Virus record (IMG/VR): IMGVR_UViG_3300042887_000814
Coordinates: 1-64,000 of that record
Source of the DNA: a virus
DNA length: 64,000 bases
Direction: 5' to 3' (one strand)
A program made the translations under genes and the position numbers. The notes under the pieces are model-generated. The model was not told the origin of the DNA, did no database searches, and saw only the letters and a list, made by a program, of their open reading frames with translations. This document shows, piece by piece, positions 5,282 through 51,971 of the stretch; position 1 is the stretch's first letter; every line of letters starts with the position of its first letter.

Positions 5282-5448
5282 TATGCTTTCACCGCTTCAA
5301 CAACGATGCCCTCACCCGCGAGTTCTTGGGCCACTTGTTCTAATGCGGCCAACGTCTCTGGTGTAGCAATATCTGCACTGTCTTTATCGTTGTCTTTGAC
5401 TATCTTGCTGAACTTTATGACAACGACATCTTCTACGATTTTAGCCAT
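5281..5448 (-). CDS. Small 55-residue acidic protein
   Basis: The frame encodes MAKIVEDVVVIKFSKIVKDN, then a DKDSAD-rich turn and a helical segment TLAALEQVAQELAGEG. Three facts support a real gene: a GGAG Shine-Dalgarno, a late-type promoter immediately upstream, and a one-base TAATG overlap with the next gene. The KFSKIVK-type strand resembles short conserved virion accessory proteins, but I do not recognise the family. Its start codon and Shine-Dalgarno sit in a perfect 10-bp stem (5447-5476). Confidence 0.65.
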   Translation of the reverse strand: MAKIVEDVVVIKFSKIVKDNDKDSADIATPETLAALEQVAQELAGEGIVVEAVKA

Positions 5449-5476
5449 AAATACTCCATTCTATTAGAGTATTTAT
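5447..5476 (-). promoter_or_regulatory. Inverted repeat enclosing a late promoter and sequestering the start of the 5448 gene
   Basis: Arms ATAAATACTC (5476-5467) and GAGTATTTAT (5456-5447) are a perfect 10-bp inverted repeat with a 10-nt loop. The 3' arm contains part of the GGAG Shine-Dalgarno and the A and T of the start codon. The late octamer GATAAATA (5477-5470) overlaps the 5' arm; predicted +1 is about 5464, in the loop, so the late transcript lacks the 5' arm. Confidence 0.7.
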
Positions 5477-5481
5477 CTATA

Positions 5482-40964: not shown

Positions 40965-41750
40965 TTAGCCTTGTATCCAAGTCAATGGCTGGCTGTAATC
41001 TTGATAACGCTTCAAGTCTTCAAGCAAACGTTCCATATCGGCTTTGCCTTCACTCTTCATAGCAGTACCGTTCAAACTCGTACCACCACCCGGGCCTGCA
41101 ATGGTACCAAATTTCTCACGGGCTTCACCGATGATAATCTTGAGTTGTGCTAAGATAAAATCAGCGAGCCATATGCCAGCACCTGGATCTTGCAATATCT
41201 CAGTCTCAGGACGTGTGATATCTGCCCAGATCAATACACGCTCACCTGTTCCCTTGAAGTCACGCACAGTACGCAATACTTTAGTGACAGGATTGAATGT
41301 ATATGTGACATATCCACCGAACATACGTGCTGCCAATTCTACATATCCAGCATAGAAATCATATGTTGCCATGCCGCCTGTATAGTTATAATTCAACAGA
41401 TAAGTGTTGAGGATAGCACTACTAAATGGGTCAAAACTTGTGCTTGAAGGACCAGTCTCAAGACCAACAGTTCTACGGAAAATAGCACGAACGTTGATGA
41501 ATTCGCTAGGAAGCGTATATGTGTCAATGTTCTTTATGATAGTCATCAAAGTGTAACTCTCCTGAGTAGCGTTTTGCGCTCTCTGACGATACACTTTGAT
41601 AGCATAATCATATGCTGCCTCATAATGCTGAGGATCTAATTCAAGATCGATGATGTCACCACCTAAGCGTAACCTTAGGTTGTCGAACATCGCGTCTTTT
41701 AGTTGCTGTAAGTTAGCATTAGTTGGTGTTGATAGTGGATCCGCAGCCAT
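40965..41750 (-). CDS. 13: Neck/head-completion protein, gp13-like
   Basis: A 261-residue protein. TYTLPSEFINVRAIFRRTVG in the middle and the C-terminal block (AGIWLADFILAQLKIIIGEA ... GPGGGTSLNGTAMKSEGKAD ... RLLEDLKRYQDYSQP) follow the pattern of gp13 neck proteins of T4-like marine phages. T4 gp13 closes the filled head together with gp14. gp14 and gp15 are 3.3 kb away on the opposite strand. Its promoter and Shine-Dalgarno are embedded in a 9-bp inverted repeat. Confidence 0.65.
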   Translation of the reverse strand: MAADPLSTPTNANLQQLKDAMFDNLRLRLGGDIIDLELDPQHYEAAYDYAIKVYRQRAQNATQESYTLMTIIKNIDTYTLPSEFINVRAIFRRTVGLETGPSSTSFDPFSSAILNTYLLNYNYTGGMATYDFYAGYVELAARMFGGYVTYTFNPVTKVLRTVRDFKGTGERVLIWADITRPETEILQDPGAGIWLADFILAQLKIIIGEAREKFGTIAGPGGGTSLNGTAMKSEGKADMERLLEDLKRYQDYSQPLTWIQG

Positions 41751-41754
41751 GTTA

Positions 41755-41786
41755 TATTCCGATTAATATGTGTATTTATCGGAATA
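41755..41786 (-). promoter_or_regulatory. Inverted repeat enclosing a late promoter and sequestering the gp13 Shine-Dalgarno
   Basis: Arms TATTCCGAT (41786-41778) and ATCGGAATA (41763-41755) form a perfect 9-bp inverted repeat with a 14-nt loop. CGGAA in the 3' arm is the Shine-Dalgarno, and ATG 41750 follows four bases later. The octamer GATAAATA is at 41780-41773; predicted +1 is about 41767, in the loop. Confidence 0.7.
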
Positions 41787-41790
41787 CCTA

Positions 41791-42390
41791 TCATTCGAAA
41801 AGACTATTGAACACCGGGGCGGTCCCTGCCATTTGTATAAATCTCTTCATCCCGCAATCTGTGATCCTAAAAGCATAACTATTTCCGTCTTTATATTCTA
41901 AAAACGCAGGGCTATTTTTACTGCTTTTGATACTACAGGATTCAAGTATAGTTCCAGTCTGGAAGTAATGATCGTGCAAAATCGATCTAGCATCTTCATA
42001 TGCTTTACGCAACTCATTCTGTAGATCAGGGTCGTCATGAAAATGCACGACTGCGGCTTTACCCACTTTGCCGGTTTCTACATCAATAATCACTCTATAC
42101 TGGCTTTGTAATTTCTGTTTGAACGAGGTTTTATCCCAAGAATTAGCCAATATATTAGTATGTGTCATAGTGCCCACTGTGTGCGCGGCGCTACTAGAAC
42201 TTTTTCTAGTTTTGATTTCTAATAATAGGTCAGGCATATCAATGACACTATCCGATCTAACATTAAAACCTTGACGGCGTAATTCATTTTCGATCTCTCT
42301 TCCCATGCTACCATCATTACAATGTTTAGCATTGGGAAAATATAAATGATCAAAATTTACTTTTAACAATTTAGCTCGGATAGCACTCAT
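41791..42390 (-). CDS. Predicted PD-(D/E)XK nuclease
   Basis: A 199-residue protein. GSMGREIENEL (27-37), then IDMPDLLLEIKTRK (50-63) give the arrangement Glu, Asp54, Glu58-x-Lys60 of the PD-(D/E)XK fold. The short spacing and the following SAAHTVGTMT resemble the MutH/Sau3AI group of DNA nicking or cleaving enzymes. Possible roles are host DNA degradation, repair or recombination. The ATG overlaps the MazG stop (4 nt). It is the last gene before the late gp13 gene. Confidence 0.55.
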   Translation of the reverse strand: MSAIRAKLLKVNFDHLYFPNAKHCNDGSMGREIENELRRQGFNVRSDSVIDMPDLLLEIKTRKSSSSAAHTVGTMTHTNILANSWDKTSFKQKLQSQYRVIIDVETGKVGKAAVVHFHDDPDLQNELRKAYEDARSILHDHYFQTGTILESCSIKSSKNSPAFLEYKDGNSYAFRITDCGMKRFIQMAGTAPVFNSLFE

Positions 42391-42836
42391 AAATCACCTT
42401 CTTTGCGGTTCTCGCTGTGGAATACGTCAAAGTGTCCGCCCGGGTATCGGGCCTGCAACTTCTTGACATTTTCGGCTACTACATCATTAGGATCAAGATT
42501 CAATGCACGACAAGCATTGACCCAATACCACATGATGTCACCTAGTTCACGCTTCATGTGAAACAATGTCTCATTGTTAAGCGGCTTACCCTGAAACGTG
42601 ATCTTCTTTACGATCTCTTGAAACTCGCCAGTCTCACTACCTAGACCGATAGCACCACAAAGCAACAATGGAACGTTGATATCCGGTCCATGCATGTATT
42701 CGCCGTTGGGTCCATATGCTTCATAGTTCCCATCAAGCCTATCTAACTGATTCATGAACGTGGTAAGATCATGACTCTCTTTGCTAGTTACAGCCTCTAC
42801 GAATTCCATATATTTGTTTAAATCGACATTATTCAT
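42387..42836 (-). CDS. mazG: MazG-like nucleotide pyrophosphohydrolase
   Basis: A 149-residue all-helical protein with ETGEFQEIVKK (Glu71-x2-Glu74) and KRELGDIMWYW (Glu97-x2-Asp100), the metal-binding ExxE and ExxD pairs of the MazG family. Phage MazG proteins hydrolyse non-canonical or host dNTPs; a stringent-response (ppGpp) role was proposed in cyanophages but is disputed. It overlaps both neighbours by 4 nt, in an operon with the nuclease and the 64-residue gene. Confidence 0.85.
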   Translation of the reverse strand: MNNVDLNKYMEFVEAVTSKESHDLTTFMNQLDRLDGNYEAYGPNGEYMHGPDINVPLLLCGAIGLGSETGEFQEIVKKITFQGKPLNNETLFHMKRELGDIMWYWVNACRALNLDPNDVVAENVKKLQARYPGGHFDVFHSENRKEGDL

Positions 42837-43027
42837 ACTAACTCCTTGAACATTTTTTTTCTACCATCTTCGCCTAGTACTTGATCAAAAATCTCTCTAG
42901 TTCTTTGCATCATAGCACACGCTAACATCAACTGATCATGTGGATTTTCTGCTGAAAAAATAGCAGTATCAATGATAGTCATCAATGCTTCCATTCTTTT
43001 TTCTATTGGATCGAATGAATCAGTCAT
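42833..43027 (-). CDS. Small helical unknown protein (64 residues)
   Basis: MTDSFDPIEKRMEALMTIID begins a compact helical protein ending EDGRKKMFKELV. It is coupled to mazG by a 4-nt overlap and follows the 375-residue gene by one base. No function is known to me. Confidence 0.65.
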   Translation of the reverse strand: MTDSFDPIEKRMEALMTIIDTAIFSAENPHDQLMLACAMMQRTREIFDQVLGEDGRKKMFKELV

Positions 43028-43028
43028 A

Positions 43029-44156
43029 TTAAAATGCCTTCAAAATAATCATATCAGCATTAAAGCGACCATTGGGTGTAATACTTACAGCCTTGATATC
43101 TTTAAAATACTTACGTGCCGCTGGCTTGCTACCCATGATCTCTTTGATCTGAGTTTCAGGCTTACGCAACGTCTTAATTTCGCTCTGCTTGGTACAGAAG
43201 CCAAGAACGCTATTGCCTTTAACCGTAAGACTCTTTGCGTAATCATCAGCAACATAGTGATGCAGTTTACGCTTCTTGGTGTCATAGACCCAAGCCTCAG
43301 CACAACCATGCAACTTAGTAGGTGGTACGCTTACCAATTCAAGTTTATCAAGTTTGAACGTCTTGAGATACTTGAGGCTACGAACGATCTTCTCGACTGA
43401 GACGGGCTTCTTAGCACGTGGCTTGCGACCAGTCTTCTTAATATTGATATAACTATTGAGTTCGCCAATCACTGATTCAATCGTACCAATGATGTTACGA
43501 ATCTGAATCTTACCGAATCGTGCATAGGCTTCGTTCAACTGTTCATCTTTGCCTGCCTGCAATTCAGTATACTCATTCAACTTCTTAGTCCAAGCATCAA
43601 TCAAGATATGAATGTGCTGTGGAAGAATATTGTACTGAGACAACACGCTTATGGTATTGATATTATTTTCTTTCTTACATCCATCTTGAATGTATTCATC
43701 CCAGAGGCCTTCAAGTTCTCCACCTGCTTCATGCGTTTTCTCACGCATGATTTCTTGTACATTGGGACGATTAGTAACCGGCTTCTCAGCAGTCTGCGCA
43801 ACCTCAATAGTACGGATCATACGTTCGATCTCATCATCAAGCCGCTGTGTGTGTTCTTCAGATTCATAACCGCGCATAAAACACCTAGCAAGATAACCAT
43901 TGCTAGTGACAACTTTATTGTCTGGAACACGGCGAATCAGTTTTGCTTTTTCGGACTTGCCCTTGAATTCAAGATATTGGGCAATAAATTCTCGGGCATC
44001 TTTCTTATCGTAAAAATGCCCATACCAAGTTAGTGCATTACCTAGACTCCACTTAGTAGATTCATCTTGTTTAAAAAAGGGTTCGGGACCGAAATACTTC
44101 GTATCAGCATCCCTAGGGTGCAGTTCTTTAATTTCATGCGTTTTGGTGCGAGCCAT
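43029..44156 (-). CDS. Conserved marine-phage protein of unknown function, early promoter
   Basis: A 375-residue basic protein. It has a helical N-terminal half (DAREFIAQYLEFKGKSEKAK, DDEIERMIRTIEVAQTAEKP) and a conserved-looking C-terminal domain (LELVSVPPTKLHGCAEAWVY, KRKLHHYVADDYAKSLTVKG, SKPAARKYFKDIKAVSITP). A basic linker (KKTGRKPRAKKP) joins them, suggesting nucleic-acid contact. I do not recognise its activity. A consensus sigma-70-type promoter and a GGAG Shine-Dalgarno indicate early expression at the head of the mazG operon. Confidence 0.7.
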   Translation of the reverse strand: MARTKTHEIKELHPRDADTKYFGPEPFFKQDESTKWSLGNALTWYGHFYDKKDAREFIAQYLEFKGKSEKAKLIRRVPDNKVVTSNGYLARCFMRGYESEEHTQRLDDEIERMIRTIEVAQTAEKPVTNRPNVQEIMREKTHEAGGELEGLWDEYIQDGCKKENNINTISVLSQYNILPQHIHILIDAWTKKLNEYTELQAGKDEQLNEAYARFGKIQIRNIIGTIESVIGELNSYINIKKTGRKPRAKKPVSVEKIVRSLKYLKTFKLDKLELVSVPPTKLHGCAEAWVYDTKKRKLHHYVADDYAKSLTVKGNSVLGFCTKQSEIKTLRKPETQIKEIMGSKPAARKYFKDIKAVSITPNGRFNADMIILKAF

Positions 44157-44189: not shown

Positions 44190-44218
44190 AGTTTACTACC
44201 TTTAAATACCATTGTCAA
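44190..44218 (-). promoter_or_regulatory. Sigma-70-type promoter for the 44156 gene
   Basis: TTGACA (44218-44213), 17-bp spacer, TAAACT (44195-44190). Predicted +1 is about 44183, with a leader of about 27 nt that includes TGGAGT. Confidence 0.75.
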
Positions 44219-49363: not shown

Positions 49364-49371
49364 TATTTATC
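49364..49371 (-). promoter_or_regulatory. Late-type promoter for the 49282 gene
   Basis: Octamer GATAAATA. Predicted +1 is about 49358, giving a leader of about 76 nt. Confidence 0.55.
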
Positions 49372-49696: not shown

Positions 49697-51928
49697 TTAT
49701 AATCGTCCTACCATGACTTCGACATAACCTTCGTCTTCATCAACTTTGTTTTCAATCGCTTTACCGATAACAGTTCCTATCTGCGGTGATTTAGATGATT
49801 TAGCATAGCCGTCACCTGCACTTACAAGCATATCGCCCTTGCTCACCAAACCAACAACTTTTACTTTCACTCTACCCATCATCGCTACCATGACAGGATT
49901 CTGTGCTTGTATAGCACCATTCATGACATATGCCGGCTCTGCTGAAACAACACCTGCTATTTTACTCGTTTCCAATGATGCGGCAGTAACTTCTTCATCA
50001 CCACCAAACTCTAATACTGTACCAGGTAAATATGGTTTGTCTGCCGAATAGAATTCAGCCAAGTCTGCATATGTTGCTGTTAATCTTGAGCCGGAACTTA
50101 AAGTCCAATTACCCGTGATTGTTCCTGAAGTGGCTGCTGCACCAGTAGTGATCACAGTGGTATTTAGGTTCTGAACACTTACTGTATTTGATGTTTTGTC
50201 GAACGTGAAGGCTGTAGTTCCATTCAACACACCACCATCATTAAATTGAACAGATGTATCTACTCCACCGGCGGGATATTCATAGCCGCCGCTACCTATC
50301 ACAGCGACCTTACCTGTAACAGCAGTAGGGAATGTTAACGTTAATTGATTCTGTGTATTATAGTAAATTTCTGGATAATCATATCTTCCTACATAACTGA
50401 CGTTAGTGGCATCGACTGGGGTGACGCTTAAATATCTTGTATTTAAATTATGATTGACTGTCCATGTTGTGCTAGCAACTGTTTGATCATGTAAGTAATA
50501 TCCAGCCATTGAATTACTACCTACAATTGATACGTTACCTGCTACTGCTGTGCTCCAAGTCAATGTTAATGTGTCTGCACCAGTATAATTAACTGTTGGA
50601 TAATTATATTCACCTATGACAGATACATTGCCTGTATCTGCCGGTGTTACTGCTACATATCTCGTATCAAGATTGTGTGTGACGTTCCAAGTTGTGCTTG
50701 GTGCGGCTTGTGTATGCAAATAATAAGTTTCTGTATTCGCACTGTCACCTTCTACTACGACATATCCTGATTCAGCAGAATTGAATGTCAATGAAACTGC
50801 GTTGGCATTAACGAATGTTACTCTTGGATAATCATATCTACCTGTCCATGAGTATCCGGCGCCATTGATTGGTGTGACATCTACAAATTGTGTGTTAAGA
50901 TTGTGTATTACTGTCCATGTAACGCTGGCAGTATCTTGTCTATGGAAATAATATCCTACTGGATCTTCTCTTAAGTTACCCCAGTATAATTCACCATTAC
51001 CATCTGTTTTCAAGAATTGATATTGTTCACCGCCGGTGATAGTAACGTTTGATATTTCACCTAAATTTGTAGTACCTGTAACTACTAGATTACCGGGTGT
51101 AGGGGTTACGGCGTTACCTACACGCAATGTATTATTTAAATAATTCCATGTCAGTACTGTATCGCCAGCAAAATCATATCCGTTGTTATACTGTATGCTT
51201 GTGTTGCCGCCTGCAACTAAACCGCCGTTAGCGGTAGTAGTATTGAATATAGCGATACCGTTGCCTGGATAAGTTCCAAAACCTGTAGTGCTGATAGCAT
51301 TGGTCAATCCTGCGTCTGAGTAGATATCGTATAATTGTAAATTGCCCGGTACTGATTTCAACCAAAACACATTACCGTTAAATGTGCTTGCATATTGTGT
51401 ATTGGCGCCTGATCCAGGTAATATTGATTGAACAGTTATTTCAACACCAGAACTCAAAGGATACGGTTCTGTCAATGTCATTCTGGATGCTGGTGCTGCT
51501 GATATATTTTGTATGTCTAGTACTATTAGACCTTTTGGGGTCCAACTCAATCCACCATCGCTGTCAGTAGTGAGTACATAACCGATCTCACCACCTGATA
51601 TAGAAACGTCAGTGACATTTCCTAGATTGATTAGTCCACCTGCGCCGCCGCCTTTGTTAACCCAATTGTTCCCATCATATGATAACACTTGGCCATTAGC
51701 CAATGTGGTACCATTAATGTTCAGGTTACCTACAGCGCCGTCTATTTGATCGAATGCGATCTCGCTAAATGCAGTGAGAACCTCAATATTCTGAGTTTCC
51801 CCTAAGGTTTTACCTATAAACAGTTTTTTTACGTCGGAGGCGAAGCCTAGTTCTGCTTCATCAAGTTGAGGTAGATCGACTAAATCGCCGCTACGTTGCT
51901 GTATTTTAGAAATCTGTAATATAGACAT
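49697..51928 (-). CDS. Tail-fibre-like protein with three HNL modules
   Basis: A 743-residue protein. The N-terminus (QRSGDLVDLPQLDEAELGFA followed by SDVKKLFIGK) follows the ELGF..DxxxLxIG pattern of phage fibre/tropism N-terminal domains. Then come a beta-rich region and three consecutive HNL modules (YYFHRQDTASVTWTVIHNL, YYLHTQAAPSTTWNVTHNL, YYLHDQTVASTTWTVNHNL). The C-terminal domain begins near ATYADLAEFYSADKPYLPGT and has KIAGVVSAEPAYVMN, recalling the peptidase-G2/intramolecular-chaperone domains of phage fibres. No cleavage site can be assigned. The start codon lies in a 10-bp inverted repeat with a late promoter. Confidence 0.75.
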   Translation of the reverse strand: MSILQISKIQQRSGDLVDLPQLDEAELGFASDVKKLFIGKTLGETQNIEVLTAFSEIAFDQIDGAVGNLNINGTTLANGQVLSYDGNNWVNKGGGAGGLINLGNVTDVSISGGEIGYVLTTDSDGGLSWTPKGLIVLDIQNISAAPASRMTLTEPYPLSSGVEITVQSILPGSGANTQYASTFNGNVFWLKSVPGNLQLYDIYSDAGLTNAISTTGFGTYPGNGIAIFNTTTANGGLVAGGNTSIQYNNGYDFAGDTVLTWNYLNNTLRVGNAVTPTPGNLVVTGTTNLGEISNVTITGGEQYQFLKTDGNGELYWGNLREDPVGYYFHRQDTASVTWTVIHNLNTQFVDVTPINGAGYSWTGRYDYPRVTFVNANAVSLTFNSAESGYVVVEGDSANTETYYLHTQAAPSTTWNVTHNLDTRYVAVTPADTGNVSVIGEYNYPTVNYTGADTLTLTWSTAVAGNVSIVGSNSMAGYYLHDQTVASTTWTVNHNLNTRYLSVTPVDATNVSYVGRYDYPEIYYNTQNQLTLTFPTAVTGKVAVIGSGGYEYPAGGVDTSVQFNDGGVLNGTTAFTFDKTSNTVSVQNLNTTVITTGAAATSGTITGNWTLSSGSRLTATYADLAEFYSADKPYLPGTVLEFGGDEEVTAASLETSKIAGVVSAEPAYVMNGAIQAQNPVMVAMMGRVKVKVVGLVSKGDMLVSAGDGYAKSSKSPQIGTVIGKAIENKVDEDEGYVEVMVGRL

Positions 51929-51958
51929 AGTTGTACATTCACCAAGTAGTACAACTAT
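51927..51958 (-). promoter_or_regulatory. Inverted repeat enclosing a late promoter and sequestering the start codon of the 51928 fibre gene
   Basis: Arms ATAGTTGTAC (51958-51949) and GTACAACTAT (51936-51927) form a perfect 10-bp inverted repeat with a 12-nt loop. The A and U of AUG 51928 are in the stem, and TTGGTGA is in the loop. The octamer CATAAATA is at 51963-51956; predicted +1 is about 51950, so late RNA lacks most of the 5' arm. Confidence 0.7.
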
Positions 51959-51971
51959 TTATGCTTTTACA

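Follow-up and report, generated by a model that had tools for sequence, protein, structure and literature searches.

A conserved predicted hairpin spans the late promoter and Shine-Dalgarno sequence of a jumbo-type phage neck gene and probably blocks its early translation

The window analyzed here is a stretch of 64,000 nucleotides (positions 1 to 64,000 of IMG/VR record IMGVR_UViG_3300042887_000814) from a large freshwater phage. Its minus strand carries a gp13-like neck gene preceded by an operon that includes p375 and mazG (Table 1). The product of the neck gene was identified as such in the first-pass annotation, and this assignment is borne out by the PHROG match and by tblastn, which gives approximately 34-41% identity to annotated neck proteins of jumbo phages. 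The same annotation placed a consensus sigma-70-type promoter at the head of the operon. The sequence is near-consensus and conserved, since the best promoter match upstream of p375 reaches 10-12 of 12 positions in 50 of 67 distinct relatives, compared with 2 of 67 shuffled sequences. A sigma-70-like match of 10 was found upstream of gp13 in only 2 of 98 cases. The gene between mazG and gp13 had been labeled a nuclease, a designation that finds no support, as neither Pfam nor PHROG returned a match; sequence similar to this gene is present at only 20 of 190 loci. No terminator-like site was found on the minus strand of the mazG-gp13 interval. The neck gene thus lies behind a codirectional unit without a terminator, as in the T4-type class of late-promoter hairpins that sequester a ribosome-binding site, and early transcription of the operon is anticipated.

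Table 1. Coordinates of the features at the neck-gene locus of the window.
Feature	Position	Strand	Remarks
Sigma-70-like promoter TTGACA-17-TAAACT	44218..44190	minus	10/12; before p375
p375, 375 aa, first gene of upstream operon	43029..44156	minus	phrog_11903, function unknown
64-aa gene, upstream operon	42833..43027	minus	reading frame
mazG	42387..42836	minus	PF03819, E 5.3e-10
199-aa gene between mazG and gp13	41791..42390	minus	stop codon ends 4 nt before 5' arm
Hairpin 5' arm TATTCCGAT	41786..41778	minus	extendable by G41787-U41754 G-U pair
T4-type late promoter octamer GATAAATA	41780..41773	minus	first bases within 5' arm
Predicted late mRNA start	~41767	minus	in hairpin loop; predicted from octamer position
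Predicted 17-nt late mRNA leader without 5' arm	41751..41767	minus	inferred from octamer position
Hairpin 3' arm ATCGGAATA	41763..41755	minus	pairs with TATTCCGAT; contains Shine-Dalgarno GGAA
Shine-Dalgarno GGAA	41760..41757	minus	in 3' arm; 6 nt before ATG 41750
gp13-like neck / head-tail adaptor Ad2 gene, 261 aa	40965..41750	minus	phrog_211, E 1.2e-23

The minus strand from 41786 to 41755 reads TATTCCGAT-AAATACACATATTA-ATCGGAATA, followed by TAAC and the start codon. The two 9-bp arms and their G-U extension, the Shine-Dalgarno within the 3' arm and the octamer that starts within the 5' arm are all located where the earlier annotation had put them. The 36-nt hairpin piece has a predicted folding energy of -10.9 kcal/mol (z -5.4), a value that none of 200 shuffled sequences attained, and encloses the Shine-Dalgarno in the 3' arm, which is the helix typical of the T4-type class. 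The octamer is likewise positioned as in that class, with the late start predicted by applying the octamer-to-start spacing of T4. Because GATAAATA begins inside the 5' arm, a late transcript starting at the predicted site would lack this arm, and the Shine-Dalgarno is unpaired in the predicted fold of RNA 41772..41700, from which the 5' arm is removed. Folding 141 nt of the plus strand gave nothing remarkable. An Rfam search of the window revealed no family at the neck-gene hairpin.

Inverted repeats whose arms span 9 bp or more are abundant in the window, with about 19 distinct cases (38 nested hits, where random sequences of equal composition give 1-9), and ATAAATA occurs at a frequency not above chance. 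Since a 9-bp hairpin is therefore not rare and the core motif is no commoner than expected, the case rests on position and evolution. What exceeds chance is the overlap of the hairpin with both the octamer and the Shine-Dalgarno, and its conservation with compensatory change.

Relatives were collected by searching viral contigs four times with gp13 queries, which yielded 187 usable leaders, 93 of them distinct. The arm-arm duplex energy is -6 kcal/mol or better in 77 of the 93, so that approximately 80% keep the fold, and only a weak fold is seen in the remaining 16. The ATAAATA core is kept in nearly all relatives, with CTAAATA in three. The stems themselves vary widely, with 31 distinct 9-bp versions that include pairing variants such as ATTCCG/CGGAAT, GTTTCCTG/CAGGAAAC, GATTACCTG/CAGGTAATC and AAACTCCAG/CTGGAGTTT. 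In 79 leaders whose register was anchored at the four inner pairs, the outer pairs comprise 253 Watson-Crick pairs, against 154 +/- 8.8 when the arms are swapped among relatives (maximum 181 in 1000 permutations). This permutation alone does not control for relatedness, and a tree-based count was therefore added. On the gp13 tree of the 79 leaders there are 61 compensatory double changes, of which the outer six pairs account for 42, whereas registers slid by 1-3 positions give 7-20 in total. The covariation among relatives proposed in the first-pass annotation as a check is thus positive, and it provides sequence-based evidence that the hairpin fold is under selection. That the hairpin reflects chance, or a by-product of the constraints on octamer and Shine-Dalgarno, is barely credible: the many hairpins of similar size in the window would favor such an origin, but the compensatory changes and the outer-pair excess argue against it, as do the promoters of another late gene that carry the same two elements without a hairpin (see below).

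Alternatively, the inverted repeat might function at the DNA level, as a two-fold operator that overlaps the late promoter. The repeat does overlap that promoter, and in T4 I-TevI represses its own late promoter through an overlapping binding site (PMC2988022). The wide divergence of the arms is, however, unlike the site of one protein, and the paired positions contain 35 G-U against 14 A-C combinations, which modestly favors a sense-strand RNA. Among relatives in which the upstream reading frame was scored, this frame ends before the octamer in 71 of 72 with strong hairpins and enters it in one, whereas 4 of 13 with weak hairpins have a frame that enters it. A need to keep ribosomes off the 5' arm would produce such a difference, but so could coding constraint by itself. 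Taken together, an operator appears very improbable. In many relatives the stop codon of the preceding frame falls next to or within the 5' arm; a terminating ribosome could disturb the fold there, which counts against a translational block.

The specificity of the hairpin was assessed on octamer promoters with a downstream start codon in the same loci. The mean energy is -10.7 kcal/mol in the gp13 leaders (n = 88), 62% of which reach -9 or better. By contrast, the leaders of a second family (n = 26), which from its position after the sheath gene we take to be the tail-tube gene, have a mean of -3.5, and none of the 26 reaches -9, despite carrying the same octamer and a Shine-Dalgarno. In a 333-kb relative the gp13 hairpin (-21.2) is by far the strongest among the octamer sites read. 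The runner-up (-12.6) precedes a 207-aa gene containing HHILPKCLGG, which looks like an HNH endonuclease gene and has no match in Pfam. Viral contigs were also scanned for the exact pattern TCCTGATAAATA-N-CAGGA, without use of the protein; gp13 was found at 36 of the 80 sites read. The tail-tube leaders and the dominance of gp13 in the 333-kb relative rule out hairpins as a general feature of late promoters in these phages; the hairpin is specific to the neck gene among the late genes compared.

A similar hairpin surrounds the octamer before a gene of approximately 1120-1127 aa at four other loci (L198, L205, L207, L255). The gene resembles that of a baseplate wedge protein, and the 135-aa frame preceding it may be gp25-like.

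Nine cultured phages were read at the same site. RaK2, 121Q, Munch, EJP2, Hallingskeid and XaC1 (6 of 9) have a strong hairpin at the neck gene with codirectional genes upstream. No strong hairpin was found at the neck genes of Atu_ph07 and SCTP-2, in which the upstream gene is divergent, nor in PA5oct, despite a codirectional upstream gene. ATAAATA has been proposed as a late promoter in the RaK2-like phage CBB (PMC5259590). In large relatives the octamer GATAAATA outnumbers its reversed control by a factor of 3-6, with one exception at about twofold. Three large relatives encode a late sigma factor similar to gp55 (E about 1e-22); no gp55 match was obtained in the 75.6-kb fragment to which the window belongs or in a 335-kb relative (G002). 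A search for the sliding clamp (PF02916) gave no match anywhere, controls included, and is uninformative.

The cultured phages also bear on whether the hairpin mainly serves to terminate or attenuate early transcription ahead of the neck gene, with the hiding of the Shine-Dalgarno secondary and the stem lost once transcription starts in the loop. A T run directly follows the stem in XaC1 (T8) and 121Q (T6), and at four further loci (L034, L041, L075, L103). TTTT precedes the ATG in only 4 of 91 freshwater leaders, however, and in the window the ATG is preceded by TATAAC, which makes this an improbable account of the element. A combined arrangement is also rather unlikely, in which the hairpin would be a lock at a neck gene kept behind early genes across jumbo-type phages, acting as a translational block, as a terminator in some lineages and with the late promoter in its loop. 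If true, its preservation would imply that early neck protein is harmful.

In T4, a helix in the long early RNAs of e, soc and 49 hides the Shine-Dalgarno or the AUG, and is lost in late RNAs that start inside it (PMC3014915); I-TevI is translated only late through the same kind of device (PMC2988022). When the leaders of T4 e, 49 and I-TevII are folded by the same procedure, they display the layout of the neck-gene hairpin. The closest geometry is that of I-TevII (CCTCGTATAAATA..ACGAGG), whose 5' arm stands directly before the octamer, as at the neck gene. As in e, soc and 49, the Shine-Dalgarno or start codon would be paired in early RNA, the late promoter lies in or beside the 5' arm, and the late RNA would be without this arm. 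Unlike in those genes, the element precedes a virion neck gene of jumbo-type phages, and compensatory conservation is shown across many relatives. The hairpins of I-TevI, I-TevII and Aeh1 mobE guard homing endonucleases, often in introns, whereas the gene here is structural. A search covering open-licence papers found no published description of a hairpin at the neck gene, and given the T4-like layout we place it in the T4-type class on inferred function. On the best reading, the mechanism is that known from T4, and its use at the neck gene is new and deeply conserved.

We propose that the element is very probably a late-promoter hairpin of the T4 type by which the neck gene is kept from being translated early, a function deduced from sequence. 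This supports the first-pass annotation, which expected early read-through into the neck gene to be silenced. The elements, the predicted fold, the compensatory conservation, the restriction to one gene among the late genes compared and the conserved early-type promoter are seen directly. In the proposed switch, whose read-through, late start site and translational block we infer, early RNA from the sigma-70-like promoter of the p375-mazG operon would read through into the neck gene, carry both arms and fold, and the hidden Shine-Dalgarno would allow little or no neck protein to be made early. At the late stage, RNA polymerase carrying a gp55-like sigma factor would initiate at GATAAATA within the hairpin region, and the late transcript, beginning in the loop and without the 5' arm, would be translated. 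A device of lysozyme, soc, endonuclease VII and homing endonucleases would thereby also act on a gene for virion assembly, in a phage group that is widespread and mostly uncultured, and it suggests which late genes lie in early operons yet must stay silent.

Other RNA elements were observed near late octamers. An Rfam freshwater-2 RNA (RF02980; 49280..49355, minus strand) directly follows a GATAAATA octamer (49371..49364) in the window, and the same succession is found in the 333-kb relative (L350); the RNA thus probably serves as leader to a late phage gene. In the 333-kb relative, a small repeated hairpin, GTAGTTCGCG..CCAACTAC, occurs soon after GATAAATA octamers (L323, L326, L329, L330, L339 and others) and also in other loci; it has no Rfam match and is absent from the window. 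At a second hairpin of the window (5477..5443, minus strand; GATAAATACTC..GAGTATTTATGG), a late octamer is itself base-paired to the start region of a 55-aa gene. T4 gene 49 shows this arrangement, and a similar layout is seen at L325. Finally, the hairpin ATAGTTGTAC..GTACAACTAT (51958..51927, minus strand) lies just after an ATAAATA at 51962, and its end coincides with the ATG that opens a 743-aa reading frame.
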